DNA of 64,000 nt from Natrinema sp. SYSU A 869 (GTDB lineage: Archaea > Halobacteriota > Halobacteria > Halobacteriales > Natrialbaceae): positions 1 through 64,000 of the forward strand of contig NZ_CP082248.1 in assembly GCF_019879105.1 (NCBI RefSeq), given 5' to 3'. Shown one piece after another: positions 11,755 to 52,105 of this stretch; the stretch's first letter is position 1, and each line of letters opens with the position of its first letter. The position numbers and the translations under genes were made by a program. The notes beneath the pieces were generated by a model. That model did not search any database. It had not been told where the DNA came from and saw nothing but the letters and a program-made list of their open reading frames with translations.

Positions 11755-12453
11755 GTGTGAAACAGAGAGAGCGGCCGCCCAAGTTGGAACAGCCGTCTCG
11801 CCAACCACTCGCAGGCCAAACGTGTCTCGTCACCGGTAGCTCGCGTGGCATTGGACGTGGGATTGCCCGTGAACTGGGCCGTTACGGCGCGACTGTTATT
11901 GTGAACTATCGGTCGTCGGAGGCTGTCGCCCATGAGGTCGCTGACGTGATCACGGAATCTGATACCGAGGGGACGGCTCATCCGGTTCAAGCTGACGTCA
12001 CGAGCCGTGGCGAGGTCGACGCGATGCGCGAGGCGGTCCAGGACTCGTTTGGGCCGATCGATGTCCTCGTTAACAACGCCGGGATCACATCCGATCGCAC
12101 GCTCGCCAATATGAGCCATGAGGACTGGCACCGTGTAATAGATGTTTCCCTCCACGGGACGTTCAACTGCACTAAGGCATTCTACGATGATTTCACGACT
12201 GTCGACGATGGACGAGTAATCAACATCTCGAGCGTGATCGGAAACAGGGAAATGTCGGCCAGGCGAATTATGCGGCGGCGAAAAGTGGGCTGTTCGGCTT
12301 CACCCGGTCGCTTGCGCTTGAATTGGCGGACACAGGAACAACAGCGAACTGCATTGCACCCGGCTTCACATTGACGGAGATGGTGGAGGCGATTCCAGAC
12401 GAGATTCAAGATGATCTCCGTGCCGACATCCCGCTTGAACGGTTCGCTAATGT

Positions 12454-13880
12454 CGGTAGTTCCCATCGAATCAGAAGTTAGTCGAGACTGATGAGGTTAG
12501 ATTCTCAGGAAGCGTCTGAATGGGTGTATGAAGTGCCTCTACCATCCAGACACCGTTCTTACGGCCTCTGACCTTGAAACCTTAGCGCTTGATCTCCTCT
12601 CTGAGATCCCGATCCCCGGAGTCGAAGGCTGCGGCTTCGACTCCGGGATTATCCGACAGACGCTCCTCCAGGCCGCTGTCGATCAGAAATCCATCAAGGC
12701 TGTCACTGACACCACTCGTGGAACGTACTCCGATGACTACACGCTTGCCCAACTTCACACGGTCCCGCCTGCTGAACTCGAAGCAATCGCTAACCGCCTT
12801 CTCTGTCAGCAGGCGGCGATGATCCTCGGCGCTGGGCCGAGGATCATCTGCCTCGACTTCGTCGATATCCATTATCATGGCTGTCCACACGCTGAACCTG
12901 GTGTAATCTGTCACACGAAGCCTCGCGATGGCACCTCCCAGTGCCATCGCTACCTTGCTGGATTTGTTCTTTGTCGGGCCAAACCACTGGTCGTCGCAGT
13001 CACACCCGTTCGTGGTGATGAACCGAAGAGCGACGCGGTCGAGCGAGTGCTCGACCACGTCGCGGCCCTCCCCTTTGATGTCGCTGGCGTTCTTGCCGAC
13101 CGTGGGTTCTACGACGGAACGTCGATCGAGCGACTGAATGCAGTCGCATCAGTCGCTCTTCCAGTCGTGCGGCGCGGAAAACAGATGGCAGAGAAACTCG
13201 ACACGACGGTGTCCTACTGGACGGAGTACGTGATGTACGAGGGGAGCGAGCGGGAACTACGCTTCCCGCTCGCGGTCTGTGTCTCCTACCAGCAGGGCAA
13301 TCGAGGTAAACACGGCTTGCTCGTTCGGGCGTACGTGGCGTGCGATCTGACCGATCGCACGCCGAAAGATGTCGAAGCACTCTACCAGAAGCGCTCAGCG
13401 ATCGAGACAGCTTTCCGAACGATACGTGAAGCGCGTGCACGAACCAGCACGACTGATCCAGTCGTGCGGCTGTTGTTCGTTCTGGTGAGCTTCCTGTTGC
13501 GGAATCTCTGGGTGATCGTTCGGTGGGGCGTGCTCGCCACGCCGCAGCGCGGCGGGCGAGCACTGCCTGTCTGGTTCCGGTTCGAGGTCTTCCGCGAGTG
13601 GATTGATCACGCACTCGACGACACGTTACGGCGGAAATGGGAAGCACCGACGAACTGTACCGGGATTCCGGCGACCTATAGCCAGCTGGACGCGGGCTGA
13701 GATCGCCCGCGTCCAGCGGCAACCCTATACCGGAGCGACGGCCTCGCATCGTGTCTGGCGCGACGGCTCTCTCACTGTCGTGAGATCGCCGTCTGAGCGT
13801 GCCGCAGGGAATCACTCGGTCTGATCTCTTTCAGTCCTTCTAAAAATCGAGTCAGCAATCAGGATCGATGGGAACTACCG
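12454..13880 (+). mobile_element. Complete IS element (IS4-superfamily, ISH3-like) with AATGT target duplication
   Basis: 1427 bp. The terminal inverted repeats begin CGGTAGTTCCCATCGA at the left (12454) and end with the complement at 13880. The five bases AATGT occur at 12449-12453 and again at 13881-13885, a clean target duplication. One transposase gene fills it. Perfect duplication and near-perfect ends suggest a recent insertion. Confidence 0.92.
12528..13700 (+). CDS. IS4-superfamily DDE transposase
   Basis: 390 residues. Candidate acidic residues: first Asp in RIICLDFVDIHYHG, second in VLADRGFYDGTSIERL, and the Y-2-R-3-E motif in ALYQKRSAIETAFRTIREAR. The C-terminal hydrophobic stretch FVLVSFLLRNLWVIVRWG is usual in haloarchaeal ISH3-like transposases. 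The frame is intact, so this copy may be active. It lies in the IS that splits the SDR gene. Confidence 0.88.
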   Translation: MKCLYHPDTVLTASDLETLALDLLSEIPIPGVEGCGFDSGIIRQTLLQAAVDQKSIKAVTDTTRGTYSDDYTLAQLHTVPPAELEAIANRLLCQQAAMILGAGPRIICLDFVDIHYHGCPHAEPGVICHTKPRDGTSQCHRYLAGFVLCRAKPLVVAVTPVRGDEPKSDAVERVLDHVAALPFDVAGVLADRGFYDGTSIERLNAVASVALPVVRRGKQMAEKLDTTVSYWTEYVMYEGSERELRFPLAVCVSYQQGNRGKHGLLVRAYVACDLTDRTPKDVEALYQKRSAIETAFRTIREARARTSTTDPVVRLLFVLVSFLLRNLWVIVRWGVLATPQRGGRALPVWFRFEVFREWIDHALDDTLRRKWEAPTNCTGIPATYSQLDAG

Positions 13881-13985
13881 AATGTGAGCGAGATTGCAGG
13901 GCTTGTTCGCTACCTCGCCAGCGAGGAATCGAGCTATATTACCGGCGAAGTTATCGACATTAACGGCGGACTCGACCTGTCGTAA

Positions 13986-15691: not shown

Positions 15692-18381
15692 TTATCCCGT
15701 GTTTTTCATGCCAGCTGCGACCCCTTTGACCGTTAATCGGAGCGTCCGTTCTTCGATATCCGTTCGGTGAGTCTGATCGAGCAGATGCACCTGGAGGATA
15801 TTTAGGGGGTCGACATACGGGTTTCGTCGTTCTAAGTTCTCGCCAAGCCAGTCGCGGGTATGTAGTTGGTCGCGCTGGCCGATTTCGGTGATCAGGTCGG
15901 CTGCCCGCTCGTACTCGTTGGCCACGCGGGGGAAGAATCGATCGCGAAGGTCCTCGTCGGCCATGTCCGCGTATCGCTCGGCGATCTCAAGTTCGGTCCG
16001 CGACAGCGAGAGCGCGGCGTTGTCCAGCGTCGTCCGGAAGAACGGCCACTCCTCGTACATCTCCTGGAGCGTCTCCATCGATCCGCCGTCCTCGAGATAG
16101 GACTGCATCCCCGTTGCGATGGCGTACCAGCCGGGCAGGATACACCGCGACTGGGTCCAGGAGAACACCCACGGGATCGCCCGCAGGTCCTCGACAGTGC
16201 GCTCGCCGCTACGGGAGGCCGGGCGCGACCCCAGATCGAGGTCTTCGATGACGGTGATCGGCGTTGCCTGTTCGAAGTACTGAACGAACCCATCGCTCTC
16301 GAGGAGGTCGCGGTACTCTTGGCGGGCGGTGTCGGCCATGGTTTCCATGGCCTCGACCCACTCGTCGCGGATCTCCTCTTCGGGCTGGTCGATCGACTGC
16401 TTGCGCGCCCGGAGCTGGGCGTTGAGCATCTGCTCGATGTTGCGCTCGGCGATGCGCGGGTTAGCGTACTTCTCGGCGATGGCCTCGCCCTGTTCGGTGA
16501 ACTTGACCTGGCCCGTCACGGTCGAGTTCGGCAGCGCCAGCAGCGCCTCGTTCATCGGGCCGCCGCCACGGGAGATCGAGCCGCCGCGGCCGTGGAACAG
16601 CCGCATCGTTACGTCGTGGTCGTCACAGATCTCGCCGAGTTGGCGCTGGTTCTTGTACAGCGACCAGTTCGCCGCGAGGAAGCCATTTTCCTTGTTCGAG
16701 TCGGAGTAGCCCAGCATGATTTCCTGGGTGTGGCCGCGGGCTTCCAACACCTGCGCGTAGGCCTCGTTTTCGAATAGCGTCCCCATGATCCGACGCGCCC
16801 CTGAGAGAGCGTATTCGGTCTCGAGTAGCGGGACGATATCAATCCCCGAATGCTCGGGCAGGGAGACGACGCCGGCCTGGTCGGCCAGGAAGAGGACTTC
16901 GAGGACGTGGCTGGGTTCGTCCGTCATCGAGATGGCATAGGTGTCGATGGCGTTGACCCCGTACTCAGTCTGCCAGTCGGCGAGGCTGTCGAATAGCCGG
17001 AGGACTCGCTCGGAATCGTCAGAGAGTTCGTCAGTGTCGCTCAGATCGATCACTGGCTCGTCCTGCAGGACGGCGTCGGTCAGGAACTCGACACGGTCGT
17101 CCTCTGAGAGCCCGTGGTAGTCGATCCCCTCGGCCTCGAGGGCTTCGGCGATGGCGTCGGTGTGTTTCGCCTGATGCTCGCGCAGGTCGAGACTCGCCAG
17201 CGAGAAGCCGAAGGTGGCGACCTGCCGGCGGATCGGGTCGATGTGAGCGTCGGCGACGCTCTCAGCGCCGTTGGTACGCAGGCTCTCGGCAATGACCCTG
17301 AGATCGTCGAGGAGGTCGTCGGCCTCGTCGTAGCCGCCCGGCCGAACATCGCCAACGCGGCGGAGCCGCTCGCGCATGAGTTTGAGTTTCTGCCGGTATG
17401 GCTCGTCGGGGTAGCGCTGTTCGGCCGTGCGCGCGGTGCCGGGCAGGCGTTCGTGGTCGTGCTCGAGAGAGGCCTGAAATTCGGAGCCGGCGTCGATCCG
17501 GCTCCCATCCTGACTCAACACGCCCGACAGGCGCTTGAGCTGCTCCTGGTAGCGCTCGAGGATCAGCGACCGCTGGCGCTCAAGGGTGTTCGCCGTGACC
17601 TCGGGGGTGACGTAGGGGTTACCGTCGCGGTCGCTGCCCGCCCACGACCGGAATTCGAAGAGTTTCGGAACCTCGATGTCGCCGGGGACTTCCGCGTCGA
17701 TCGCGTCGTCGAGTTCGCCGTAGATCTCGCCGACGACATCGAACAGCGTGTTCTCGAGATACCACTGGACGTTGCGGGCCTCGTCCTCGGGTTCGGGCTG
17801 GCGATTGCGCACCTGTGGCGTCTGCCAGAGGCTCGTCACCTCGGCATCGATGTCCTGCCAAACCTGCCCTTTCTCTTTGTCCGTCAACAGTCGTTCGTCT
17901 AAGGTCTCGAGCGAGGTCGATATTTCTCGGAGTTTGGACTTGACGGTCTTGCGGCGGGCCTCAGTCGGATGGGCGGTAAAGGTCGGCTCGATCAAAACAT
18001 CGTCAAGGATCTGCCGGACGGTCTCGACATCAGCCTCGCCGAGTTCCTTAGCCGCGGTCTTGAGGCTATCCTCGAGGGTCCCTCATGAGACCCCTCCCGG
18101 ATGGTCCGGATCCGCTCTTGTTCTTCTGCCAGATTGATCAGCTCGAAGTAGGTCGTAAACGCCCGGGCGACGATCCGCTGGTTGTGGGCCGACACTCCTT
18201 CGAGTTCCGCGATCAAGGGCTCGCGAGAGTCGCGTTCGCCGGAGCGATACTCGATCGCAGCTTGTCGGCCCGACTCGACCGTCTCGAACGCCTTGCTTGA
18301 GGTCTGCTCCTCGAGGATATTCCCCAGTAGCGTGCCGAGTTCGCGGACATCTTGACTGACACCTCTGCTATTGAGTCCCAT
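15692..18381 (-). CDS. ppc: Phosphoenolpyruvate carboxylase (one-base frame break)
   Basis: Reconstructed length 896, the size of bacterial-type PEPC. It carboxylates PEP with bicarbonate to oxaloacetate (anaplerosis). Motifs: catalytic His in TFTAHPTEARRKT, SWAGSDRDGNPYVTPE, LGYSDSNKENGF, FHGRGGSISRGGGP, TEQGEAIAEKYA, and the extreme C-terminal KNTG seen in all PEPC. The N-terminal 99 residues (from ATG 18381, to RTIREGSHEG) are in another frame because the CCC run at 18080-18082 is one base short. Restoring it gives TLEDSLKTAAKELGEADVE. With that single exception the gene looks perfect. It links the PEP/pyruvate pool to the TCA cycle, useful when growth is on serine-derived pyruvate. Confidence 0.93.
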
Positions 18382-18545
18382 ACATCTAGAATATCAGTTT
18401 GAAGTTAAAAATTCTCTGTAGACGTACCGCGCTTCATCAGTGGGAGTCGGTGAGCCAATTTCATCTCTGGTGGCAGACTTCGTTCTTAAATATACGTAAT
18501 ATCACGGGCCAATAATCATTATTGACGAATGTGGACAGTACTCGT

Positions 18546-18839
18546 ATGAGTAGAAGACTCAAGGGGTCAGCGCCCGACCAAACGACTCATCATCTCCATC
18601 ATGAGTGGAACGGAGACGGGTTGATAAGCGATCAGATCGTGGAAGAGATCGCTGAGTACGAAAACGAGGATCGAGGTGAGTTGCCGCCCCTGAACAAAAG
18701 CATCAATCCTGTGGCACTCGATACGGCGTTTGAAGCGCCTGACGACGATACAACTATGGCAGGGTGCATAACGTTTTCCTACTATGGCTACACTGTGCTC
18801 GCACAGAGTACCGGTCAGGTACTGATCAAAAAGAGCTAA
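18546..18839 (+). CDS. HalOD1 output-domain protein
   Basis: 97 residues from ATG 18546. Core: VEEIAEYENEDRGELPPLNK, INPVALDTAFEAP, then GCITFSYYGYTVLAQSTGQV. Same family as the protein at 6151 (ELPPL, P-AL, G-Y motifs). It is divergent from ppc with 164 bp between starts. TTG 18522 is a possible upstream start. Confidence 0.75.
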   Translation: MSRRLKGSAPDQTTHHLHHEWNGDGLISDQIVEEIAEYENEDRGELPPLNKSINPVALDTAFEAPDDDTTMAGCITFSYYGYTVLAQSTGQVLIKKS

Positions 18840-19336
18840 TCAGTATACTGTGGCATAGATTGCGCTCACGTCGATAGAGGGAAGCTCTGGAAGGGGTTAT
18901 TTGGCGGTTCGCGAACTCCACATCACTCACACCACTTCTCACATGGCTGAAGCCGTGAGCTTTCACTCGGAAGTTCTGTGCTCGGTACCTCGATATTCGC
19001 GAGACGGATCTGGCTTTTTGAGTTCTCCGCATGATTCCGGGTTGTCGGGACGCGTCACTCCACTCGTTTCATATCTATTTTTTCTGACTCGTAGTGTTTG
19101 AGCACCTGCGAGAATATTTCCAACGAGTTACTTGTTCCCATAGTAGCTTTTCGTGTTTATACCCTCGGAGATATAACATAAAGTCATCTCATGAATACCG
19201 CACACATTCAAATATCTGTATGGCCAGCGGGCCGGTGCGCCTGTTTCGGGCGTAGCACTAACCTTTTAACTCCCACACCTGCTCTATCCACACTGTACTG
19301 TGGGACTGTGAACCCCCGCTGGAGTAGATACGCAAG
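18840..19336. other. Intergenic with an IS200/IS605-like hairpin
   Basis: 497 bp. At 18938-18959 an imperfect palindrome CTCACATGGCTGAAGCCGTGAG resembles end hairpins of IS200/IS605 elements, without a second end. Nearer the pabB gene, an inverted repeat CCACACTGTACTGTGGG (19289-19305) lies about 30 nt before the start and could affect transcription or be an operator. No gene seen. Confidence 0.45.
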
Positions 19337-20845
19337 ATGAGCCAAACGACAGTCGTTACCGATAGGGAGTCATTCCTCGCTACTGCCGAGGCTGCACCGC
19401 CCGAAGCGAGAGTACCGATTGAGGTCCGCGTCTCCGTTTCGGACCCGTTCGTGGCGTATCGACGCGCTCGCGATGACTCCGACGGGTTCTACTTGGAGAC
19501 GACCGGCGGACAGTCCGGCTGGGGATACTTTGGCGTCGCTCCGGTCGAGCGGATTCAGGTTCCTCACAACGCTGTATCGGAGGGCGAAGAGAGCCCGTCG
19601 ATAGCCGCAATCGATACTGTTCTCGATCGCGAACAGCTAGTCCGTGGAGAGTGTTCGGTCCCGTATCCTTGCGGTGCGTTCGGATGGCTGTCCTACGACG
19701 TCGCTCGCGAACTGGAGGATCTCCCGGACACAACCACCAACGATCGGAAGCTACCGCGGCTGCAACTGGGCGTGTTCGATCGCGTGGCCGCCTGGAGAGA
19801 ACCTCGCAACGACAAGCCGGTCATAGTACACGTTACGGCGTGTCCTGTCGTCGGCGACGACCCGGCCTCCGCATACGAATCGGGCCTCGAGGACGCGGTC
19901 GAACTCGCACGGGCGACGATAGAGGGGACAGAACGACAGTGCGCTCCGCCCACGACGGCGGAGAGGGCTACGTTCGAGAGCGAGTGCGGCAGAGAGGCAT
20001 TCGCAGATCGCGTCCGAGCTATCAAACAGTACATCCGCGATGGGGATACATTCCAAGCGAACGTCTCTCACAGGCTGGTCGCGCCCGCCGACGTTCACCC
20101 GATCGACGTGTTCAGTGCCGTCCGACAGGTGAACCCTGCCCCGTATTCGGGCTTACTGGAGTTCCCTGGGATCGATCTGGTGAGCGCCAGCCCCGAGCTC
20201 TTGCTTGAAGTTCGCGGCGACGAACTCGTTACGGAACCGATTGCGGGAACTCGTCCCCGGGGGACGATGACCGAGGAAGATCAGACTCTCGAAGCGGACC
20301 TCCGAGACGACGAGAAGGAGCGCGCTGAACACGCGATGCTCGTCGACCTGGAGCGAAATGATCTGGGCAAGGTGTGCGAGTACGGCTCGGTTGAGGTCGA
20401 AGAGTACAGACGAATAGACCGTTACTCGGAGGTCATGCACCTTGTCTCCGTGGTACGTGGCCGGCGGCGAGACGATGCGACCCTCGCCGACTCGGTTTCG
20501 GCGGTGTTCCCGGGCGGGACGATAACCGGTGCACCCAAACCCCGTACGATGGAGATCATCGACGAAGTCGAAGCAACCCGACGAGGGCCCTATACAGGAA
20601 GTATCGGCATTTTTGGGTTCGATAACCGAGCGACTCTCAACATTATCATTCGAACACTTGTGCGCCACCACGACGAGTACTCTCTCCGTGTCGGCGCAGG
20701 GATCGTTCACGATTCCGATCCCGCTCACGAGTACGCTGAAACGTTGGACAAGGCTCGTGCGCTCGTTACCGCTGTCGACGAAGCGCTCGGCGACCAAGCG
20801 TCGTTAGCTGTCGAAACAGCACCCGACGTGATGGGGGACCCCTGA
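19337..20845 (+). CDS. pabB: Aminodeoxychorismate/anthranilate synthase component I
   Basis: 502 residues of the chorismate-utilising family. N-terminal half: [13 protein letters not shown] and [20 protein letters not shown]. Catalytic half: [86 protein letters not shown] and [24 protein letters not shown] has Ala where E. coli PabB has Lys, a state shared by TrpE and many PabB. With only PabA/TrpG beside it, no other trp genes, and a folate-based pathway nearby, I favour 4-amino-4-deoxychorismate formation for folate; anthranilate synthase remains possible. Its stop overlaps the next start by one base. Confidence 0.8.
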
Positions 20846-21414
20846 TGATCCTGATCATCGATAACTACGACTCTTTCGTTTACAATCTCGTTCAGTATGT
20901 CGGCGAGTTCACCCCCGTTGAAGTCCGCAGAAACGACGAAATCGATGTTGAGGGGATCCGGTCGCTCGATCCGGACGGGATCGTCGTCTCGCCAGGGCCG
21001 GGGAAACCCGAGGACGCGGGCATTTCCGTCGACGTGTTCGCCGAAACTGACTACCCCGCGCTGGGAGTGTGCCTGGGACACCAGGCGCTGTGTGCCGCTC
21101 ACGGCGTTTCAGTTGGCCACGCCCCCGAAGTGATACACGGGAAGCCGTCCGAGGTGCGCCATGACGGCACTGGACTGTACGCTGGCCTCCCTGACCCGTT
21201 CGAGGTGGGGCGATACCACTCGCTTGCCGTCGAACGAGAGTCGTTGCCGTCTCGCCTCGTCGAGACGGCCTGGACAGACGACGACCGCGAGATCCTGATG
21301 GGCGTCCGGCACGCGGACCGACCGCACGTCGGCGTCCAGTTTCATCCTGAGAGCATCCTTACCGACGCGGGCAAGCGGATCATCGAGAACTTCTGCTCGA
21401 TGGCCGCCCAATAA
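20845..21414 (+). CDS. pabA: Glutamine amidotransferase subunit PabA/TrpG
   Basis: 189 residues. Class I glutamine amidotransferase: IIDNYDSFVYNLVQYVGEF, GIVVSPGPGKPEDAG, the nucleophile Cys in ALGVCLGHQALC, and the His-Glu dyad in GVQFHPESILT. It releases ammonia from glutamine for the partner synthase. Translation is coupled to pabB (TGATG at 20843-20847). The stop codon is immediately followed by the left end of the MITE at 21416; the haloarchaeal pabC that often follows is not here. Confidence 0.85.
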   Translation: MILIIDNYDSFVYNLVQYVGEFTPVEVRRNDEIDVEGIRSLDPDGIVVSPGPGKPEDAGISVDVFAETDYPALGVCLGHQALCAAHGVSVGHAPEVIHGKPSEVRHDGTGLYAGLPDPFEVGRYHSLAVERESLPSRLVETAWTDDDREILMGVRHADRPHVGVQFHPESILTDAGKRIIENFCSMAAQ

Positions 21415-21415
21415 T

Positions 21416-21598
21416 CAGTTAATCACATCGAGAGACTCACGATCTCCACCAGTAGGCACTGAATCTACGTCCGTGATGTCTGGATAGCCTTCGGAACGAT
21501 GGTGGTGGCGGGATCTGACATCAGTCAGTCGCTGTCGGCGGCGGATCGCCGCCGACGCGACAGTGTAGCCACTCACTCTAACCCGATGTGATCGACTG
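21416..21598. mobile_element. 183-bp MITE derived from the ISH3-type IS at 23926
   Basis: Its ends CAGTTAATCACATCG and CGATGTGATCGACTG match the IS ends. Bases 21416-21575 are nearly identical to the first 160 bp of the IS (few substitutions), then it jumps to the last about 22 bp of the IS. The junction lies at CACTCA, which occurs in the IS at both sides of the deleted part. It includes the long hairpin GTCGGCGGCGGATCGCCGCC (around 21534-21553). Confidence 0.85.
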
Positions 21599-21718
21599 TG
21601 GTTGTCGATGGCAGTGCCACTGACACCGACGCGTGTCGGGAGAGCATACTCTCGTCCGGTATGCTGTCAACCGAGCCACGGTCACTTATCCTTCCCACAA
21701 GCACGATGAGAGTGGCCG

Positions 21719-22057
21719 TCAGTCGGCCGTCGATCCCCCGCCGATCGTTTCGAGAGACTCGATCTCCGCGTCCGTCCAGTCGTAGAACGACTCGTCGTTC
21801 TCCCGGAGAGCCTCGACACACTCGTCGTGGCGATCGACCGCCTCTCGATGGTAGGGGTCAGCGGGATTGGAATCGATCCAGTTCCTGAGTTCCCGCAGGG
21901 CAGTCGGGGAGTAGGTGTCGATCGTTCCCTGACGCTCGATGAGTTTGACCTTCCGGTCCTCGTCAGCTAGCGTACGATACATCGCCCAGCCGCCGACCCC
22001 CCAGAGGAGGACGATCGAACTGAGCATCATAACCCACGTGATTGCTGCCAGTGCCAT
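21719..22057 (-). CDS. NSS transporter small subunit (MetS-like)
   Basis: 112 residues. One N-terminal membrane helix (ALAAITWVMMLSSIVLLWGV, then GGWAMYRTL) and a charged cytoplasmic tail (LADEDRKVKLIERQG, LRNWIDSNPADPYHREAVDR). This is the size and layout of small subunits paired with sodium symporters such as MetP/MetS for methionine and alanine in Corynebacterium, though haloarchaeal ones have longer tails. It starts 2 nt after the transporter's stop, so the two are co-transcribed. Confidence 0.75.
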   Translation of the reverse strand: MALAAITWVMMLSSIVLLWGVGGWAMYRTLADEDRKVKLIERQGTIDTYSPTALRELRNWIDSNPADPYHREAVDRHDECVEALRENDESFYDWTDAEIESLETIGGGSTAD

Positions 22058-22059
22058 AG

Positions 22060-23519
22060 TCAGTCACCTCCCGAAACAGGTGGTCGTTCGTTTTCGGTGC
22101 GCATATTCAGCGCCTGTGCCAGCCCCAGACTTATGGCGACGATGATCGCCATAAGCGCGAGGCCACCCAACATAAGTGTCTCATTCTCGGACCCAAGGCT
22201 TGTCACTGCACCGTAGGCTATGATGAAGAGCATCACAGCCGGAATGACGAACCGGACGATTGGGTTCCACCACGAGCCGATGTAGATGTCGGCGTTCCGG
22301 TTCAGGTCGAGTACGCGACCCCGTTCAGGCTGGAACTTCCAGCCCACGAGCGTGATGACTGCCAGAGTAGCGATCGGCAGCCCGAAGTTCCCGAACATGT
22401 AGTCTAACGTCCCCAGGATGTCCTGGGAGATCGCACTCGGGATACCCAGAAGCCAGATGAGGAAGACCACGCCCACGACGGTCTGGGTCCGGGAAAAGCC
22501 AAACTCCTCGTCGAGAGTGGTCACGATTGGCTCAGTGAGTGCGAACGCGGAGCTGAACGCGGCAAAGAAGAATCCAAAGAAGAACACGATCGCCCACAGC
22601 CCGCCGCCCGGCATCTGCGGGAAGACTTCGACCAGCGAGATAAACGCCAGACTCGTTCCTGCGGTGGGCTCCAGTCCGAAGGCGAAGACCACAGGGAAGA
22701 TCGCAAAAATCGCGAGCAGACCGATGCTGGTGTTCCCAACGGCCGTGAACAGCGCCCCGCCGAGTGGCACATCGTCGTGCTTGCGGAGGTAGCTCCCGAA
22801 GGTCAGAGCGACCCCCATCCGAGTCCGGTGGAGAAAAGCGCCTGCCCTAACGCTGCGACCCAGGTCTCGCCACGCAGGAAGTATTCCCAGTCGGGGTTGA
22901 ACGCGAAGGCCAGGCCCTCGACGCCGCCCGGAAGGGTCACACCACGGATGGCGACGGCGACGAGCGAGATCGCCATCAGTGGGATCATATACTTCGCCAT
23001 TCGCTCAACCCCGTCTTTGATCCCGAGAGATAGGACGGCGGCCACGCTGATCGCCGTCACCGTGTGGGTTCCAACGGTCAATGCAGGTGAGTTGATGAAG
23101 TCGTTCCAGAATGGCTCTGGCTGGAACGCGGGGTCCATAAAGGTGAAAAGCACCGAATGTACTGCATAGTACAGGATCTCGCCGACAAGCGGAAGGTAGT
23201 AAGTCATCAGCGCGAAGTTAACGATGACTACTACAAACCCGAGTCCACGCAAGGTCCGGTTGTCAAATATCTGTTTGAACGTGCCGATAATGCCTTTCCC
23301 GGTGTACCGACCGATCATCGTTTCGGCCATCAAACCAGGGATGGCGATGAGGTAAAGCAGGATGATGTAGGCGAGGAGGAATGCGCCTCCGCCGTTCATT
23401 CCGGTCGTATAAGGCATCCGCCAGATGTTTCCCGCACCGACCATCGCCCCGATCATTGCCATCATAAACCCGAATCGGGTACCCCACTCCTCACGTGACG
23501 TACTCGTTTCTTCTGTCAT
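22060..23519 (-). CDS. Sodium:neurotransmitter symporter-family (NSS) amino-acid transporter (one-base frame break)
   Basis: Reconstructed 486 residues, 11-12 membrane helices. N-terminal NSS signature: WGTRFGFMMAMIGAMVGAGN then IWRMPYTTGMNGGGAFLLAY (TM1 with the unwound Na+/substrate site). Later, ALFSTGLGWG continues as VALTFGSYLRKHDD in the next frame, and TM8-like GNTSIGLLAIFAIFP. The break is at CCCCC 22812-22816 (one base short); otherwise both halves are clean. It imports an amino acid with Na+; the substrate is not readable from sequence, though pairing with a MetS-like subunit suggests neutral amino acids. It is the cargo of the putative composite transposon. Confidence 0.88.
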
Positions 23520-23799
23520 ATGTCACCAATTGTCACTAAACCTCTACCCCGCATTAAAGTTTTCCCGTTTTATAATTATAGCTTCACTTACAACAACTCG
23601 GTTTTCGACAATCAACGCAACCCGCCTAATTAGACAGTGCTAGTTTTGAGTTTAATTATGTTTTGACACTGCCAGATTGAGGCTGAACTGAGTGGAGTTC
23701 CTCAAAAGGAGGTGGATGCTAAGCGAGGACCTCCATATTGACGTAGCGGGTTCTTCGGACGTACCGTTTTAGATAATGACTGGACGCGCACGCTAGCCG
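23520..23799. other. Upstream region of the NSS operon with IS-end fragments
   Basis: AT-rich promoter DNA (TTTTATAATTATAG, 23568-23581) for the leftward transporter. AGACAGTGCTAG near 23632 matches the end of the IS6-type element at 14558-15330 in all but one base, suggesting an IS end here that connects to the transposase remnant at 23800. Confidence 0.4.
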
Positions 23800-23925
23800 G
23801 GGATCCGGTTGGCGTGCGCTGTCAATGCTGCCTCGGCGTCGTTAGCCGAGTGTCGTGACCTCTGCGAGTGGTTCGGCGTCAGCCGAACCCGAGCAACGGT
23901 TCAACACTGGATCAAGCATCAGTTA
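23800..23925 (+). pseudogene. N-terminal fragment of an IS transposase, cut by the ISH3-type IS
   Basis: LACAVNAASASLAECRDLCE, WFGVSRTRATVQHWIKH: the helix-turn-helix start of haloarchaeal DDE transposases (IS6-like; compare LGVERSHGAVWNWVHRLAD in the copy at 14566). The frame runs straight into the end of the IS at 23926, which interrupted it. Confidence 0.6.
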
Positions 23926-25282
23926 ATCACATCGAGAGACTCACGATCTCCACCAGTAGGCACTAAATCTACGTCCGTGATGTCTGGATAGCCTTCGGAA
24001 CGATGGTGGTGGCGGGATCTGACATCAGTCAGTCGCTGTCGGCGGCGGATCGCCGCCGGCGCGACAGTGTAGCCACTCACGAGCGCTGCCCCAATTCAGG
24101 GACAGCTATCGGAAGAACCGGTCGTCGAGTGGTTGATTCGCTGGGACAGCTCTGCGCACACCGAGGGCTGTCCAGGCAGCACGAATCACCATCTCACAGA
24201 ACTCCGTGAACGACCACTCCCAGAGGCGGCGCCCCCCACGGCGGGGCGCCGCCACGTATATCCAGTGAAGGTATCGCCAGACGTTCTGTAGCAATAGACT
24301 CACGACAAACAGCAATAACCGAAGCCCGGCGTCCCGTGAACTGGTGAGAGCGAGGCTCTGCTTGGCTAATCGATAGCTTGACTCGATTCCGAAGCGCTTG
24401 CGATAGTGTTCTCGTGCATCCCGTGGTGTGTCGATGAACGGCGCGTCAGCGGCGTAGCCGTGACGCGTCACCCCGTGCTCGTCGTATCGTCCTCGCTGGT
24501 AGACACAGTCGATGAACACAGGGAATGTTACCCGCCTAGCGAGTTCGTGTTCGATCACACGACTCCAGCCTCTACTGAGTTCGTCTTGAATCGTCTCGCC
24601 CCACTTGACAATTGGCATGATGTAGGCGTAGTTGTGCGCGTACAGCAGTTCGAGACAGGTGCTGTGGTAGAATCCGCGATCAAGGTAGACGGCCTTGACG
24701 CGCAGGTCAAGACCGTTGAGGAGTTCGAGGAACTCACCAAGAGCATCGCTGGTGGCTTCGCCAGCGATCAGCTGGCGAACCGCCAGCGTGTATCGCTTGT
24801 TACGCACCCGTGCGTAGAGCGTGACGTAAGCGTGAAAGGCGGTGGTTCTCGTTTCGCCTGCGAGAAGTACAGTGACTCCGTCTCGTCCTCGTCACCGTAG
24901 TACGGATCGAGGTGGAGGTCGGCGACGACCTCCACCGGTCGATCTGGAAGCGTCTCAAGGACATCCCGTTGAAGGAGCGTGTTCCCAACCGTTTCAACGG
25001 CATCAAGATCGAACTGATCGATAAGATATCCACGGACGGTATTGGCGTGGGGTGAGTCGTTAGTTTTCTCGCAGACGTGATTGATCGAGGTCCCGCCGGC
25101 GAGGACCTCGTACAATTCCTCCGTTGTGACCGCTACGTTCTCCCGAGGTCCAACGAAAGTTCCTTCTCGAGACTGCTGACGACAAAATTAAGCAGGTGCT
25201 CTTCTTTTAGCTCGTTGTCTGCTGGGGTTGATTTCACACCTTCTCCAAGCAGACACTCATCCTAATCCGATGTGATCAACTG
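23926..25282 (-). mobile_element. ISH3-family IS element
   Basis: 1357 bp with ends CAGTTAATCACATCG (23926) and CGATGTGATCAACTG (25282). It contains one transposase gene on the minus strand and a strong hairpin (about 24042-24070) between the gene's stop and the left end, probably its terminator. The 183-bp MITE at 21416 is an internal-deletion derivative. Confidence 0.85.
24106..25237 (-). pseudogene. ISH3-family transposase (two one-base frame breaks)
   Basis: KSTPADNELKEEHLLNFVVS, then in the next frame ENVAVTTEELYEVLAGGTSI, LPDRPVEVVADLHLDPYYGD, LYFSQAKR; in the third frame TAFHAYVTLYARVRNKRYTL, VKAVYLDRGFYHSTCLELL, RFGIESSYRLAKQSLAL, QNVWRYLHWIYVAAPRRGGR, ending DDRFFR. DDE residues: ADLHLD, YLDRGF and E of the Y-R-E region. 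Breaks at CCC 25142-25144 and near 24848, each one base short. If both are sequencing artefacts this would be an intact 377-residue enzyme. Confidence 0.85.
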
Positions 25283-25840
25283 ATAATAGGTCTTTTCTAG
25301 AATATCTCGTTCGGCGCGACGTTCACGGTCGAGAACGAATCGCCGACCACCCGCCAGAACTTCACAGTGATATCACTGTTATTCTATTACTCTCCGAGAA
25401 CAGCCGTCCGTCCACCGTCGACAGAAAGTGTACACCCGATACAGGCCGGGCTTCTGGATCGTTCGATCAATAAGTTCCGTCCCGTGCGGACGGTTGTCGA
25501 CGGCCGTCGCCGAACACTCGATCAGAGTGATCCGTGTTCCGAAACACAGTGTTACGAACGACTGGAGAGTTTGAAGATCGATCGAACGTATAGACTATCG
25601 CCAGCACACACCTTGTGGAGAGGCTGTTTCGTCGCTACAACTGAGGATGAGGGGGTCGAGTTACCGGGACCCGTGTTGGTCCGTGGCTGAGGACAGAGCT
25701 ACGAGATCCGGGACGGTCCGAGGTCGGAACGACCGTTGAAAGGATCCATATTCCTCATCCTATGTAGGGCACCCGGGTCAGGCGCCATATCAAGCGTTTC
25801 TGTACCACTTAAAATATCTTCATGTGGATAGTTACGGGAG
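25283..25840. other. Intergenic, no gene recognised
   Basis: About 560 bp after the composite element. Before insertion it would have followed the pabA stop directly. I looked for pabC remnants and saw none. A 107-codon frame at 25367-25690 shows no familiar motif and has an Arg/Ser-rich makeup unlike haloarchaeal proteins. Confidence 0.4.
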
Positions 25841-25850
25841 TTTATATAAT
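25841..25850 (+). promoter_or_regulatory. TATA-like promoter of the folD leader
   Basis: TTTATATAAT at 25841-25850, an excellent archaeal box. Transcription would start near 25872, some 175 nt before the folD start. This is long for haloarchaea, where most mRNAs are leaderless. Confidence 0.55.
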
Positions 25851-25871
25851 CTTGCCAGCAGCAGTGCGCAC

Positions 25872-26048
25872 CCCGCCCCGCTTTTCCCGCAAACGGGGGT
25901 GTAGAATCCGGCCGTCCCCGCCACCCGTAAATTAATTACTTCTACCTGATGACCCTGCAACCGCCGACGCTGCGAGTAACGGCTCAGCGCCTACCGCCAG
26001 CTGTGGGAACGTTACGGTCACTGCGGAGTGACACTCGAAGGTAAACCA
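25872..26048 (+). ncRNA. Candidate structured 5' leader of folD
   Basis: About 175 nt rich in C and G with local hairpins: CCCGCAAACGGG (about 25898-25909), GCTG/CAGC arms around 25971-25989, and a perfect GTCACT-GCGG-AGTGAC (26017-26032) ending 17 nt before ATG 26049. No riboswitch class I know (glycine, THF, SAM) fits the visible sequence, so this is only a candidate cis-regulatory RNA. Confidence 0.3.
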
Positions 26049-26941
26049 ATGACAGAATCATCGATGGAAACGAGATTGCGGATCGAATCAAGACAGAATT
26101 GGAAGTGTGCGTCGAAACACTCGGTGATCACGGCGTCACGCCCGGTCTCGCGACGGTGCTGATGAGCGACGACAGCGCGAGCGAGACGTACGTGAACATG
26201 AAACAGCGGGCGTGCGAGGAGATCGGGATCGAAGGGCGTCACCACGAACTCGATCCCGAGACGTCGTCGGACACACTAGAAGGCCGGATAGAGGCGTTGA
26301 ACGAAAACCCGGACGTACACGGGATTCTCGTCCAGATGCCGGTCCCCGACCACGTTGACGAGCAAACCATCCTCGAACGGATCGATCCGATGAAGGACGT
26401 CGATGGGTTCCATCCGGAGAACGTTGGCAAACTCGTCACGGGGGATTCCCAGCTCAAGCCGTGTACTCCACATGGTATCCAGCGACTGCTCGCCGCCACG
26501 GGGGTGGAGACGGCAGGAAAAGACGTCGTGATCGTCGGCAGGTCCAACATCGTAGGGAAACCGATGATGAACCTTCTCGTCCAGAAGGACAATCTAGGTA
26601 ACGCAACGGTGACTACCTGTCACTCCCGAACGAATAATCTCGCAGAGAAAACAAGAAACGCGGACGTCGTTATCGCTGCCGCCGGCGTCCCAGAACTGAT
26701 CGACGGATCGATGCTGTCGGAAGACACCGTTGTCATCGACGTAGGCGTCAACCGTGTCGACGCGGACGACGACAAGGGGTACGAACTCGTGGGCGACGTC
26801 GAGTTCGAAAGTGCCGCGGAGCAAGCCAGTGCCATCACGCCGGTGCCCGGCGGCGTCGGACCGATGACGATCGCGATGTTGCTCTACAACACTGTCAAGG
26901 CGGCCAGCCTTCAGAAGAACGTCGACGTCGATCTTCCCTGA
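26049..26941 (+). CDS. folD: FolD: methylene-THF dehydrogenase / methenyl-THF cyclohydrolase (one-base frame break at the start)
   Basis: 297 residues when restored. It oxidises 5,10-methylene-THF to methenyl-THF with NAD(P)+ and hydrolyses it to 10-formyl-THF. Motifs: SETYVNMKQRACEEIGI (catalytic Tyr and Lys), VHGILVQMPVPDHVD, DGFHPENVGKL, CTPHGIQRLL, VVIVGRSNIVGKPM (nucleotide loop), ITPVPGGVGPMTIAML. The expected N-terminus MTE-IIDGNEIADRIKTELE appears only if one A is added at 26056-26057; otherwise translation would need TTG 26099. It sits upstream of the dehydrogenase at 27122 and receives methylene-THF from it. Confidence 0.93.
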
Positions 26942-27087
26942 CCTCTAGCGGCTCGCACTTCCCGAAAGTAACACATACATTTCATTTTGTGGGCGTTTTG
27001 TAAAATACCTAACCTCTAGTGGAGTCTCCTGCCGCTATACCGTAACTCAGTGCCTTCAGCCGGTTTTGACTTAAATGACCGTTGCAC

Positions 27088-27093
27088 TTATAA
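27088..27093 (+). promoter_or_regulatory. TATA box of the first dimethylglycine/sarcosine dehydrogenase
   Basis: TTATAA (inside CTTATAAG) lies 29 nt before ATG 27122, the spacing expected for a leaderless transcript. It supports ATG 27122 over upstream in-frame starts. Confidence 0.6.
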
Positions 27094-27121
27094 GAGAATC
27101 CACCGGATTGGGTTGTGTCAT

Positions 27122-29692
27122 ATGAGCACAGATAGCGTTCCGTCACGAGCAGATACTGTCGTCATCGGTGCGGGTGCCGTCGGTTGTAGCGTCGCATACC
27201 ACTTGACTGAACTCGGGGCGGAGGACGTCGTCGTTCTCGATCAGGGACCGCTTCCGGTGACCGGTGGCTCCTCCACGCACGCTCCGGGGATCATGTTTCA
27301 GACGTCACCGTCGAAGATACAGACGAAGACGGCTCACTACACGAGCCGACTACTGAAAGACGCCGGCGTCTACAGGGAAGTCGGCGGTATCGAAGTTGCA
27401 CGATCGGAGGAGCGCATGGACTTCCTCGAGCGCCGCGTCGAGTGGGCGAAGTCCTACGGGCTCCCCGATCCGCAACTACTCGAGCCCGAGGAAGTCGTGG
27501 AGCACCTGCCGCTCGTCGACGAGGACGAGATCCTCGGCGGGTACTACTCCCCGACGGACGGTGTGGTGTCCGGCACTGACGCCCTCCAGTGGTACATGGA
27601 GGAATCGTCCGCCGACTTCTACGGTAACACTGAGGTGACGGACATCGAGACGGCGGCGGGCGAAGTGCAAGCTGTCGAGACCGATCAGGGACGAATCGAG
27701 TGCGGGCGGTGCGTCCTCGCGACGAACAACTGGGCGTACCAGACCGGACAGATGGTCGACCTCGATCTTCCGATCGCACCCGTCGAACATCAGTACGTCG
27801 TCACCGACTCTCTGGAGAATCTCCGAGGAAACGACTCGTCGCTCGGTGACGCTACGGCCGGTCTCGAGGTGCCTGGGGATCGGAATATCACCGAGTTCAT
27901 GGCCCAGCCTCCGGATAGACCGGTCGGCCGCGATCAGGACAACTCGCTGTACTTCCGTACTCACGGCGACGGGTACGGACTCGGGTCGTACAACCACGAA
28001 CCCCTGGTCGTCGATCCCGACGAGATGGGGAAAAACACCGACGAGAGTCAGGCCTCGGTTCACAGTTTCACCGAGAAACACTGGACGAAGCCAACTCATC
28101 CGAACCGGGACAAATCCCCGCAGCAGGCGTTCGACGAACTCCTTCCCGCCACTCAGGACAAGGAGTTCCAAGTTACCGAGAACGGTATCTTCGTCTACAC
28201 GCCCGACGGGATGCCCGTCATCGGCGAAACCCCCGAAATCGACGGCCTGTGGACCGGATTGGCGGTCTGGTGGACGCACTCGGGCGGGTACGGCCGAATC
28301 CTCGCGGAGTGGATGGAGAACGGCGTCCCCCGCCTTCCGTCCGGGCCGGTCGACACAAGCGGCATCCACGTCGCTCGGTTCGCGCCCCACGCGGGTAACA
28401 AAGAGTACCTTATGGACCGCGGTGGGAAGCGATACGAGCAAGTGTACAGCATCGTCGAACCGCGCTGGCAACCGAACGAGCACCGGGGACTGCGCGAGAG
28501 CCCCTTCCATCCGCAGCAGGCGGAAATCGGCGCCGAGTTCTCCCAGAGCGGCGGCTGGGAAACTGCGCAGCGGTACGAGTACAACGAGGATCTCGTCGAG
28601 AAGTACGAGGACCAGATCCCGGAGCAGGACGGTTGGCAGGGGATCAACCGATCGCCGATCGAGGGCGCAGAGCACCTCCACACCCGAGAAAACGTCTCCA
28701 TGTACGATATGACATCGTTCAGCTCGATCATGGTGGAGGGCGACGACGCCGACGAGTTCCTCCAGCAAGTCTGTAGCAACGACATGGAGATCAGCGTCGG
28801 GCGGGTTCGCTACACTACGTTGCTGAATGAGGGCGGCAACGTAATCGCGGACCTGACCGTGGCTCGCCTCGACGACGATGAGTACATGGTGTCCACCGGC
28901 GGCGGCAATTCGCCGGGGATCCACGGCTCCTGGCTCCAGAAGCATGCTCCCGAGACCGTCTCCGTCACCGTCGAGGAGTCGGCGAAGTGCACCGTCGGAC
29001 TGTGGGGACCGAAGTCTCGGCTGTTACTCCAGCGAGTCACTGACGCCGACGTCTCTAACGACGGCTTCCCGTACTTCGGCTGTAAGCGTATGTACGTCGG
29101 CGACGTGCCGGTGATTGCACTCCGGGTGTCGTACGTGGGCGAGCTCGGTTGGGAACTGTGGGCCCCGTCGGAGTACGGTCGGAAGCTCTGGGACACCCTG
29201 TGGAAGGCCGGCCAAGACCTCGACGTCAGACCAATAGGCGACAGTGCACTCGAGTCGATGCGCCTCGAGAAGGGATTCCGCCTGTGGGGAACCGACATCG
29301 ATACGGACGTCAACCCGCTCGAGGCCGGACTTCCTTTCGCCGTCGACCTCGATACGGAGTTCATCGGGAAAGAGGCGCTCGCCGAGGCCAAAGACGATGG
29401 CCTCGACAGCCAAGTCGCCTGTCTGACGCTGGACGATTCGACTGACGTGATGCTCGGCGGTCGGCCGGTTCTCGCGGATGGCGAGGTTCTCGGATACGTG
29501 CAGGCTGGCGACTTCGGCTACTCGGTTCAGGAGTCGATCGCCTACACGTACCTGCCCAGCGAGTACGCCGAGGCCGGTACCTCTGTTCAGATCCAGTGTG
29601 AGGGTGAAACGTACGACGCGACTGTCCGCGACGAACCACTGTTCGATCCCGGCCGCGACAAATCATCCGGTGACCGAACGATTCCAATATAA
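27122..29692 (+). CDS. FAD-dependent dimethylglycine/sarcosine dehydrogenase with GcvT-like domain (copy 1)
   Basis: 856 residues, the size of mitochondrial DMGDH/SarDH. N-terminal DAO-type FAD domain: TVVIGAGAVGCSVAYHL (GxGxxG, 16-21), GGSSTHAPGIMFQ (His at the position of the flavin-linked His in DMGDH), DGMPVIGETPEIDGLWTGLA. The C-terminal half is GcvT/aminomethyltransferase-like: NVSMYDMTSFSSIMVEGDDA, YVGELGWELWAPSEYG, LRLEKGFRLWGTD-type motif and a final beta-barrel. The family oxidises N-methyl groups and passes the one-carbon unit to THF as methylene-THF. Operon with the dehydratase 8 nt downstream. Which methylamine it prefers cannot be read here. Confidence 0.9.
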   Translation: MSTDSVPSRADTVVIGAGAVGCSVAYHLTELGAEDVVVLDQGPLPVTGGSSTHAPGIMFQTSPSKIQTKTAHYTSRLLKDAGVYREVGGIEVARSEERMDFLERRVEWAKSYGLPDPQLLEPEEVVEHLPLVDEDEILGGYYSPTDGVVSGTDALQWYMEESSADFYGNTEVTDIETAAGEVQAVETDQGRIECGRCVLATNNWAYQTGQMVDLDLPIAPVEHQYVVTDSLENLRGNDSSLGDATAGLEVPGDRNITEFMAQPPDRPVGRDQDNSLYFRTHGDGYGLGSYNHEPLVVDPDEMGKNTDESQASVHSFTEKHWTKPTHPNRDKSPQQAFDELLPATQDKEFQVTENGIFVYTPDGMPVIGETPEIDGLWTGLAVWWTHSGGYGRILAEWMENGVPRLPSGPVDTSGIHVARFAPHAGNKEYLMDRGGKRYEQVYSIVEPRWQPNEHRGLRESPFHPQQAEIGAEFSQSGGWETAQRYEYNEDLVEKYEDQIPEQDGWQGINRSPIEGAEHLHTRENVSMYDMTSFSSIMVEGDDADEFLQQVCSNDMEISVGRVRYTTLLNEGGNVIADLTVARLDDDEYMVSTGGGNSPGIHGSWLQKHAPETVSVTVEESAKCTVGLWGPKSRLLLQRVTDADVSNDGFPYFGCKRMYVGDVPVIALRVSYVGELGWELWAPSEYGRKLWDTLWKAGQDLDVRPIGDSALESMRLEKGFRLWGTDIDTDVNPLEAGLPFAVDLDTEFIGKEALAEAKDDGLDSQVACLTLDDSTDVMLGGRPVLADGEVLGYVQAGDFGYSVQESIAYTYLPSEYAEAGTSVQIQCEGETYDATVRDEPLFDPGRDKSSGDRTIPI

Positions 29693-29700
29693 TTTACAGT

Positions 29701-30938
29701 ATGAGTGAATCACGGGAATTACAGATACGATACGAGGATATTCGACAGGCACACGACCGGTTGGACGACGACACGGTAGTCAAGCGCACACCGGTCGAAC
29801 AGAGTACGTCGCTCGGAGAAATGGTCGGCGCCGAGGTGTACCTGAAGATGGAGCATCTCCAGTGGACCGGGTCGTTCAAGACGCGAGGTGCCTACAACAA
29901 GATCTCTCAGTCCGTCGAAGAGGGCGTCGACGAGTTCATCGCTGCCAGCGCCGGTAACCACGCACAGGGCGTGGCATTAGCGGCGACGAAGTGCGGAGCG
30001 GAGTCGACCATCGTCATGCCGAAGACCGCTCCGCAAGCCAAGATAGACGCGACCCGCGGCTACGGTGCAACAGTCGAGCTCGTCGGTCAGGACTTCCAAG
30101 ACGCGATGTCGTACGCTCAGTCGGAAGCCGAAGACAGCGACGCGGAGTTTGTCCACGCGTATGACGATCCAGACATCGTCGCCGGGCAGGGTACGCTCGG
30201 GATCGAGATGCACGAGGACTGCTCGGACCTGGACACCGTTGTCGTTCCGATTGGCGGTGGGGGCTCATCAGCGGGATCGCTACTGCTTTCGCGCACCTTT
30301 CACCCGAGACACGGATCGTCGGCGTCCAGGCTGAGGGGGCCTCAACAGTTCACGAGAGTCTGGACAAAGGGATGCCGGTCACGCTTGACGAGGTCGACAC
30401 TATCGCTGACGGGATAGCGACTGGCGGCATCTCGGACCTGACGCTTGACCTCATCAACGAACACGTCGACGAGATCGTGACCGTCTCCGATACGGAGATC
30501 GCAAAAGCGATCTTGCTACTGCTGGAGCGCGCCAAGCAGGTCGTCGAAGGCGCCGCGGCAGCGTCCGTCGCCGCAGTTCTGAGCCCCGATCTCGACGTTC
30601 GCGGCGAGACCGTCATGCCGCTACTCGGCGGCGGGAACCTCGACATGACAATGCTCCAGACGGTCCTTATCCATGCGCTCACCGACCGAGAACAGATCCT
30701 CCGGTTGCGCGTGCGGATCAACGACGCCCCGGGCAAGATGGCAGAGATCTCCGGAACTATCGCGAATCACGGTGCAAACATTCACGACGTCCGCCACGAT
30801 CGGGCGGTGGAGGATCTCAGCGTTGGCGATTCCTATCTTGTTTTCCGGATCGAGACGAGCGGCGCCGAACATGCCGAGTCGATCATCCGGGCGATCGAAT
30901 CTGAGGGATACATCGTCGAGGACGTTAATCAAAAGTAG
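29701..30938 (+). CDS. ilvA: Serine/threonine dehydratase with ACT domain (one-base frame break)
   Basis: 412 residues when restored. PLP type II fold: LKMEHLQWTGSFKTRGAYNK (Schiff-base Lys), AASAGNHAQGVAL, VVPIGGGG then, in the next frame, LISGIATAFAHLSPETRIVG, ESLDKGMPVTLDEVDTIADG, and the C-terminal ACT domain LRLRVRINDAPGKMAEISGT. The break is at GGGGG 30259-30263, one base short. It deaminates threonine to 2-oxobutyrate or serine to pyruvate. Being in an operon with a dimethylglycine/sarcosine dehydrogenase, serine (from GlyA) is the likelier substrate; the ACT domain implies amino-acid control. Confidence 0.88.
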
Positions 30939-50554: not shown

Positions 50555-50971
50555 GACCACGATTCTCCGTACTACCCATCGCCACAGCGTGTCTCTCAGC
50601 TATACGAGCTTCCGCTGAGAAAGAATGATGAGCACCACCTCGTAGATGCGTCCTCCGGCACCCCTCCTGTTCGCGTTCTGGACACGTTACCCGTAAAACG
50701 GCGTGAGAGTCAGGGATCACGCTCGACGAGACAGAACTCTTCTGGGACACCTTCCTGGATCACCGTCACTGCAACCCTCCATCAGGATCGGTAACTGATT
50801 ACGTGGAACACGTCGACTGGTCACGAGCCGAGATCACGAATGCGTTTCTGCTCTCCTGTGTGGACGATGCTTCGTCCGTTCGTCGACACCCCCCGAATCC
50901 TCACTAGTTTATAATGTGGTTCAGTATCACAGGTGAACTGTTTTTTATGGGTGTGCCATCTGTGGTCCTGT
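50555..50971. other. Intergenic with promoter of the first oxygenase
   Basis: 417 bp. TTTTTTATGG at 50941-50950 lies about 25 nt before ATG 50972, and TTTATAATG at 50910-50918 is a second box. No gene seen in the remainder. Confidence 0.5.
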
Positions 50972-52105
50972 ATGACACAGTGGGACGAATCACAAACGCA
51001 AGTAGTGAGTTCGGATATCACGGAGAAGTCGAACGCGTTACCGGCGAAGTACTTCACCGACCCGGAAATCTTCGAGAGAGAGAAAGAGAAAGTGTTCGGC
51101 CAGTACTGGGTATACGCCGGACACGTCAACTGCATCCCGGAAGCGGGCCAGTACTTCACCCGGACGATCGGTGATCGACAACTGATCATCGTCCGCGGTC
51201 ACGACGGTGATATCAAGGCGTTCGACAACGTCTGCGCCCACCGCGGCTCGAAGATGGTCGAGGATACACCGATGACCGACCCCGGCGATGCAAAGCGAAT
51301 CAAGTGTCCGTACCACCTCTGGACGTACGACCTTGAGGGAGAACTCAAAAGCACGCCCAAGAGCTTCGATGAAGCCGGTCTGAATCCCGACCTTGAGGAC
51401 GAGGAAGTACAGGAGTTCGACGCCGAAGAGAACGCCCTGAACGATGTGCACGTCGACAGCATCGGGCCGCTGCTCTTCGTGAACCTGAGCGATGACCCGA
51501 TGCCGCTGGCCGAGCAGGCCGGCGTGATGAAAGACCGTCTCGAGGCGCTCCCGCTGGGGGAGTACGAACACGCCACTCGGATCGTTTCCGAGGTCGAGTG
51601 CAATTGGAAGGTGTTCGCGAGCAATTACTCGGAGTGTGACCACTGTCAGGCAAATCATCAGGACTGGATCAAAGGCATCTCGCTCAACGAGTCCGAACTC
51701 GAGGTCAATGATTACCACTGGGTGCTTCACTACACCCACGCCGAAGACGTCGAGGACGAGATGCGCATCCACGACGAACACGAGGCACAGTTCCACTACT
51801 TCTGGCCGAACTTCACGGTCAACATGTACGGGACCGCCGACGGCTACGGCACCTACATCATCGATCCCATCGACACTGGCCGCTTCCAGTTGATCGCGGA
51901 CTACTACTTCCGGGACAGCGAGCTCTCGGAGGAGGAACGTGAGTTCGTCCGGACGAGTCGCCAACTCCAGGAAGAAGACTTCGAACTGGTCGAGCGCCAG
52001 TGGAACGGACTCAAAACGGGCGCGCTCGCACAGGCCCAACTCGGCCCCAACGAACACACCGTCCACAAGTTCCACCAGCTCGCACAGGACGCCTACGACT
52101 CGTGA
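50972..52105 (+). CDS. Rieske-type aromatic-ring-hydroxylating oxygenase family protein, candidate glycine betaine monooxygenase
   Basis: 377 residues. Rieske cluster: NVCAHRGSKMVEDTP and IKCPYHLWTYDLEGEL (CxH, CxxH). The catalytic domain has NYSECDHCQANHQDW with the two iron His residues and IIDPIDTGRFQLIADYYF downstream. The short interval between Rieske and iron motifs and the size match GbcA/choline-monooxygenase-like enzymes that demethylate glycine betaine to dimethylglycine plus formaldehyde. A reductase partner is not in the window, so electrons must come from elsewhere. Leaderless start 25 nt after a TATA-like box. An oxygenase with a nearly identical C-terminal half is at 55674. Confidence 0.85.
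   Translation: MTQWDESQTQVVSSDITEKSNALPAKYFTDPEIFEREKEKVFGQYWVYAGHVNCIPEAGQYFTRTIGDRQLIIVRGHDGDIKAFDNVCAHRGSKMVEDTPMTDPGDAKRIKCPYHLWTYDLEGELKSTPKSFDEAGLNPDLEDEEVQEFDAEENALNDVHVDSIGPLLFVNLSDDPMPLAEQAGVMKDRLEALPLGEYEHATRIVSEVECNWKVFASNYSECDHCQANHQDWIKGISLNESELEVNDYHWVLHYTHAEDVEDEMRIHDEHEAQFHYFWPNFTVNMYGTADGYGTYIIDPIDTGRFQLIADYYFRDSELSEEEREFVRTSRQLQEEDFELVERQWNGLKTGALAQAQLGPNEHTVHKFHQLAQDAYDS

Follow-up and report, generated by a model that had tools for sequence, protein, structure and literature searches.

A probable ISH3-family compound transposon carrying an NSS symporter operon in Natrinema sp. SYSU A 869

In Natrinema sp. SYSU A 869, a 3.87-kb block lies between pabA, a folate-synthesis gene, and folD (positions 21411-25287). 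It is probably an ISH3-family compound (composite) transposon that was assembled elsewhere and reached this site in a single insertion. The window, by which we mean the whole 64,000-nucleotide stretch of DNA analyzed (G000:C2:1-64000), belongs to an 881-kb replicon in a genome of 5.67 Mb. As in compound transposons, two related IS ends enclose a cargo, a 5-bp target duplication is present at the outer sides only, and a clean empty site exists. The block belongs to a known kind of element; both its host and its cargo are unusual.

The two end elements lie in the same orientation, 183 bp long on the left and 1363 bp on the right, and share their first 161 bp at 98.8% identity (Table 1). ATAAT stands at each outer side of the block, as the first-pass annotation had reported, and the mismatch that it noted between the inner flanks was confirmed as well: TGGTT follows the left element and AGCAT precedes the right IS. 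Consequently, neither end element has a target duplication of its own, the left one being flanked by ATAAT and TGGTT. On its outer sides the block ends in a left tip and a right tip of a single IS family, ISH3, which together form the natural pair. In an unbiased scan of the window for 5-bp repeats combined with inverted tips, the block ranked second, behind an unrelated IS at 12449-13885.

Table 1. Features of the block and of its target site (positions in the window)
Feature	Position	Strand	Remarks
pabA, left flank of target site	20845..21414	+	
Target duplication, left copy ATAAT	21411..21415	.	includes pabA stop codon TAA
Left end element, 183-bp internally deleted ISH3-family copy	21416..21598	+	
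orc1/cdc6, captured 5' sliver	21599..21680	-	DNA homology to G047 to 21627; peptide GSVDSIPDESMLSRHASV vs GSVDSMADEDMLSWDESI
Small protein gene, 112 aa	21719..22057	-	conserved beside NSS in G047; no Pfam match
NSS/SNF sodium symporter gene	22060..23519	-	two frames, 1-bp deletion in G run near 22803-22818
Left end of another IS	23667..23919	+	resembles copies in other haloarchaea at ~76-81%; truncated by right IS
Right end element, ISH3-family IS	23920..25282	-	transposase on minus strand
Target duplication, right copy ATAAT	25283..25287	.	
folD, right flank of target site	26054..26941	+	1-bp deletion in A run at 26058

A 5-mer would match by chance with a probability of about 0.001; the 5-bp duplications of full sister IS copies and two empty sites are more telling than this figure. 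Sister ISH3 copies carry the 5-bp duplications AGGAT (L003), AGTAT (L019) and GGGAT (L020), and the published ISH3B, ISH3C and ISH3D copies of Halobacterium salinarum likewise show 5-bp duplications (PMC10264941). The first-pass annotation had instead pointed to the other intact IS in the window. That element is real: it is intact-looking, 1427 bp long, with perfect tips CGGTAGTTCCCATCGA and the 5-bp duplication AATGT. Its tips differ from those of ISH3, however, so its duplication says nothing about this family, for which the sister copies are informative.

The empty site that had been predicted, with the end of pabA joined to the right flank, was found twice. In a congener (G025), pabA runs straight through the insertion point without the block, at 86% identity over the joined stretch; its junction reads ...GGCCGTCCGATAACCGGTCTTTGC..., against ...GGCCGCCCAATAAT followed across the insertion point by AGGTCTTTTC... 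in the window. The Haloterrigena turkmenica plasmid pHTUR02 (NC_013745.1) is likewise empty, with 78% identity over 628 bp through the point; the next annotated gene there is a BCCT transporter, not folD. Plasmids of Halostagnicola larsenii and Halosolutus gelatinilyticus have pabB, pabA and folD adjacent without an insert. Neither empty site contains the NSS genes. At its empty site the congener's pabA (L048 6295-7055) has lost its start and no pabB is seen beside it, which indicates that this pab copy is decaying.

The cargo is foreign to the genus. Window positions 21627-23544 are 84% identical in DNA, with the same gene order, to two genomes of another haloarchaeal family (G047 and G072), whereas the best paralogs within the genus reach about 65%. 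Between the NSS protein and its G047 counterpart, identity is 90-91%; the best host paralog reaches 56% over most of its length. A scan of genome contigs with the G047 NSS protein brought up only distant MAGs. The G047 gene order is orc1/cdc6, the 112-aa protein, NSS and a MutS-like gene, and among the NSS loci examined (with about 1.5 kb of flank in most) orc1 adjoins NSS only in G047 and G072. On one side, the homology to G047 passes the small gene into the first orc1 codons and ends 28 bp before the left element; on the other, it ends 25 bp upstream of the NSS start, and an IS remnant follows. The left element thus sits in the orc1 sliver and the right IS in the remnant of another IS, and these limits of homology place the two end elements in two different donor sequences. 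Assignment of the remnant to the IS6 family was considered and rejected, its rve_3 match being weak and below the cut-off. Judged by these sequence comparisons, the NSS operon seems to derive from haloarchaea of another family. Together, the empty sites and the foreign origin of the cargo uphold the original proposal of a composite transposon with an NSS cargo.

The family assignment of the right IS rests on several observations. Plasmid matches to it carry ISH3 annotation, and an intact sister copy in the host genome scores 358.4 bits against the ISH3 transposase model NF033541 (cut-off 225). The window transposase fragment scores 216.4 bits, below the cut-off, because the gene is split: it is frameshifted in the assembly, with two 1-bp deletions and one 12-bp deletion relative to the two intact ISH3 sister copies elsewhere in the genome (L002 and L003; C2, C3). 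A search for the direct parent of the right IS returned closest relatives of only 95% identity. The tip CAGTTAATC is common to both end elements and occurs in no other copy sampled. L002 (G000:C2:626877-628262), whose transposase is identical to that of L003, has the unmatched flanks AGCCT and AGGAT and is possibly the end of another rearrangement.

The left element consists of 161 bp of the IS left end and 22 bp of a right tip, joined at a CACTCAC repeat. The first-pass annotation had taken it for a MITE, with the right IS as its parent. In form it resembles one: the element is short and non-coding, its tips are intact, and its ends are the terminal inverted repeats of the IS; moreover, other internally deleted ISH3 copies occur. 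Membership of a true MITE family is nevertheless quite improbable. No second 183-bp copy was found in 29 genomes of the genus (28 besides the host), 392 genomes sampled from the order or 72,556 plasmids, all but the 22-bp tip is plain IS left end, and the deletion breakpoints meet at a 7-bp repeat, as would follow from a single, isolated deletion. The known-family label therefore does not hold, and the element is best described as a lone internally deleted IS copy. Nor is the right IS its direct parent, since their right tips are of different ISH3 subtypes: CTCTAACCC, the right tip of the left element, belongs to the subtype of G250, G189, G061, G197 and others, is absent from the right IS, and has an exact counterpart in G250, in a right end of ISH3 type close to the end of a contig. 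When a parent of the left element was sought, no copy carrying both of its ends turned up. The two end elements are therefore closely related sisters that differ in their right tips, and neither is the parent of the other. In other haloarchaea, internally deleted ISH3 copies of about 385 bp (G375; L154 1378-1762) and about 390 bp (G238; L153 1601-1993; loci in the order listed) were observed, indicating that such shortening recurs.

Two further histories of the block have to be weighed. In the first, two unrelated elements inserted next to an NSS operon that was already in place, and the five bases match by chance; this would also leave differing inner flanks and ends in different sequences. 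We give this almost no credence: such a match is rare, and the absence of the NSS genes from both empty sites, together with their foreign origin, excludes a coincidence. An unlikely but more substantial alternative is a history in two steps, in which a lone full ISH3 entered at ATAAT and a circle or plasmid segment carrying NSS and a shortened ISH3 then integrated by homologous recombination within the 161 bp of left end common to both. The block would end up with the same ends, and the outer duplication fits both this and a single insertion of a compound transposon. Left ends that are nearly identical and share a private tip, combined with right tips of different subtypes, are also what a crossover or conversion would give. 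Against it, the two-step history requires a donor circle whose shortened copy connects the orc1 sliver with a foreign IS remnant, an extra step of which there is no trace, and no strain carrying just an IS at this site was observed.

The preferred reading, a single insertion of a preformed compound transposon, would run as follows. The donor would have had the genes for Orc1, the small protein and NSS in that order; an ISH3-type element would have landed in the first orc1 codons and a second, in the same orientation, in the IS upstream of NSS. An ISH3 transposase could then have brought the left element's left tip together with the right IS's right tip, ends that it also pairs in a single IS, though here they lie 3.87 kb apart rather than 1.36 kb. 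The left element may have been short by then or may have lost its middle later. The whole segment would have moved into the pabA-folD spacer just behind the pabA stop codon, duplicating ATAAT. The transposase could have come from the right IS while it was intact, or from an intact copy in trans. The proposal had also called for a search for the same block elsewhere, which would support the reading without being indispensable to it: the block is single-copy in its own genome and was found in none of the other genomes searched, and no genome with the block at the donor site was found. We therefore infer movement as a unit, and propose on the same footing that there was one transposition event, which transposase drove it and how the block passed between species. 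Tentatively, neither end may have had a working transposase, so that an intact ISH3 elsewhere in the cell drove a non-autonomous natural compound transposon, a variant to which we give less than even weight. If true, this would document that IS elements can carry a transporter operon from one haloarchaeal family to another.

Haloarchaea are rich in IS elements and foreign genes. Compound transposons are known from bacteria, and well-documented natural archaeal cases seem few. Tn10 is a bacterial compound transposon with one defective IS end. The same holds for Tn5, with IS50L (cited in PMC10969869). The block resembles Tn5 and Tn10 in that two copies of one IS flank a cargo, the outer tips are used and only the outer target is duplicated. 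Unlike them, it is of the ISH3 family, its left end retains 183 bp and lacks an entire transposase gene, its host is archaeal, and it carries a transporter gene instead of one for resistance. Mobile units flanked by MITEs are described in Acinetobacter, in class 1 integrons and a MITE-297 block (PMC6382973, PMC10969869). There, too, a non-coding IS-derived end bounds a cargo segment; both ends are identical MITE copies, however, whereas here a lone deleted copy is combined with a full-length IS. The H. salinarum ISH3B, ISH3C and ISH3D copies share the transposase family and the duplication length; they are single insertions, and the part of PMC10264941 consulted describes no pair that carries a cargo. 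In the open-access literature, as far as its titles, abstracts and text excerpts were consulted, we found no natural composite or compound transposon of such kind in haloarchaea or other archaea. In haloarchaea, a cargo between IS ends has seldom been documented together with its target duplication, an empty site and a gene order that points to the source, and with this block the ISH3 family can be tested as a vehicle for genes.

The state of the genes was unremarked in the first-pass annotation. The loss of 1 bp in a G run interrupts NSS, and 1-bp losses split the transposase as well. Relative to the congener, 1-bp losses also occur nearby in folD, ppc and a threonine ammonia-lyase-like gene, so that window positions 16000-30500 contain five genes with such losses; 1-bp coding losses relative to this genome lie mostly in base runs. 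The losses in this region represent either assembly errors or decay of a redundant region. Sequencing error is likely behind some of the frameshifts, perhaps including those of NSS and the transposase. We rejected the frameshifts as proof of decay, the 1-bp losses being mostly in base runs and the chromosomal NSS paralogs of the host being split too; given the low coding density in parts of the replicon, true decay may still contribute. A second folD lies at C3:817579. Elsewhere in the window, two Rieske-type oxygenase-like genes at positions 50933-52105 and 55674-56684 are near-duplicates of each other and have long stretches in common.
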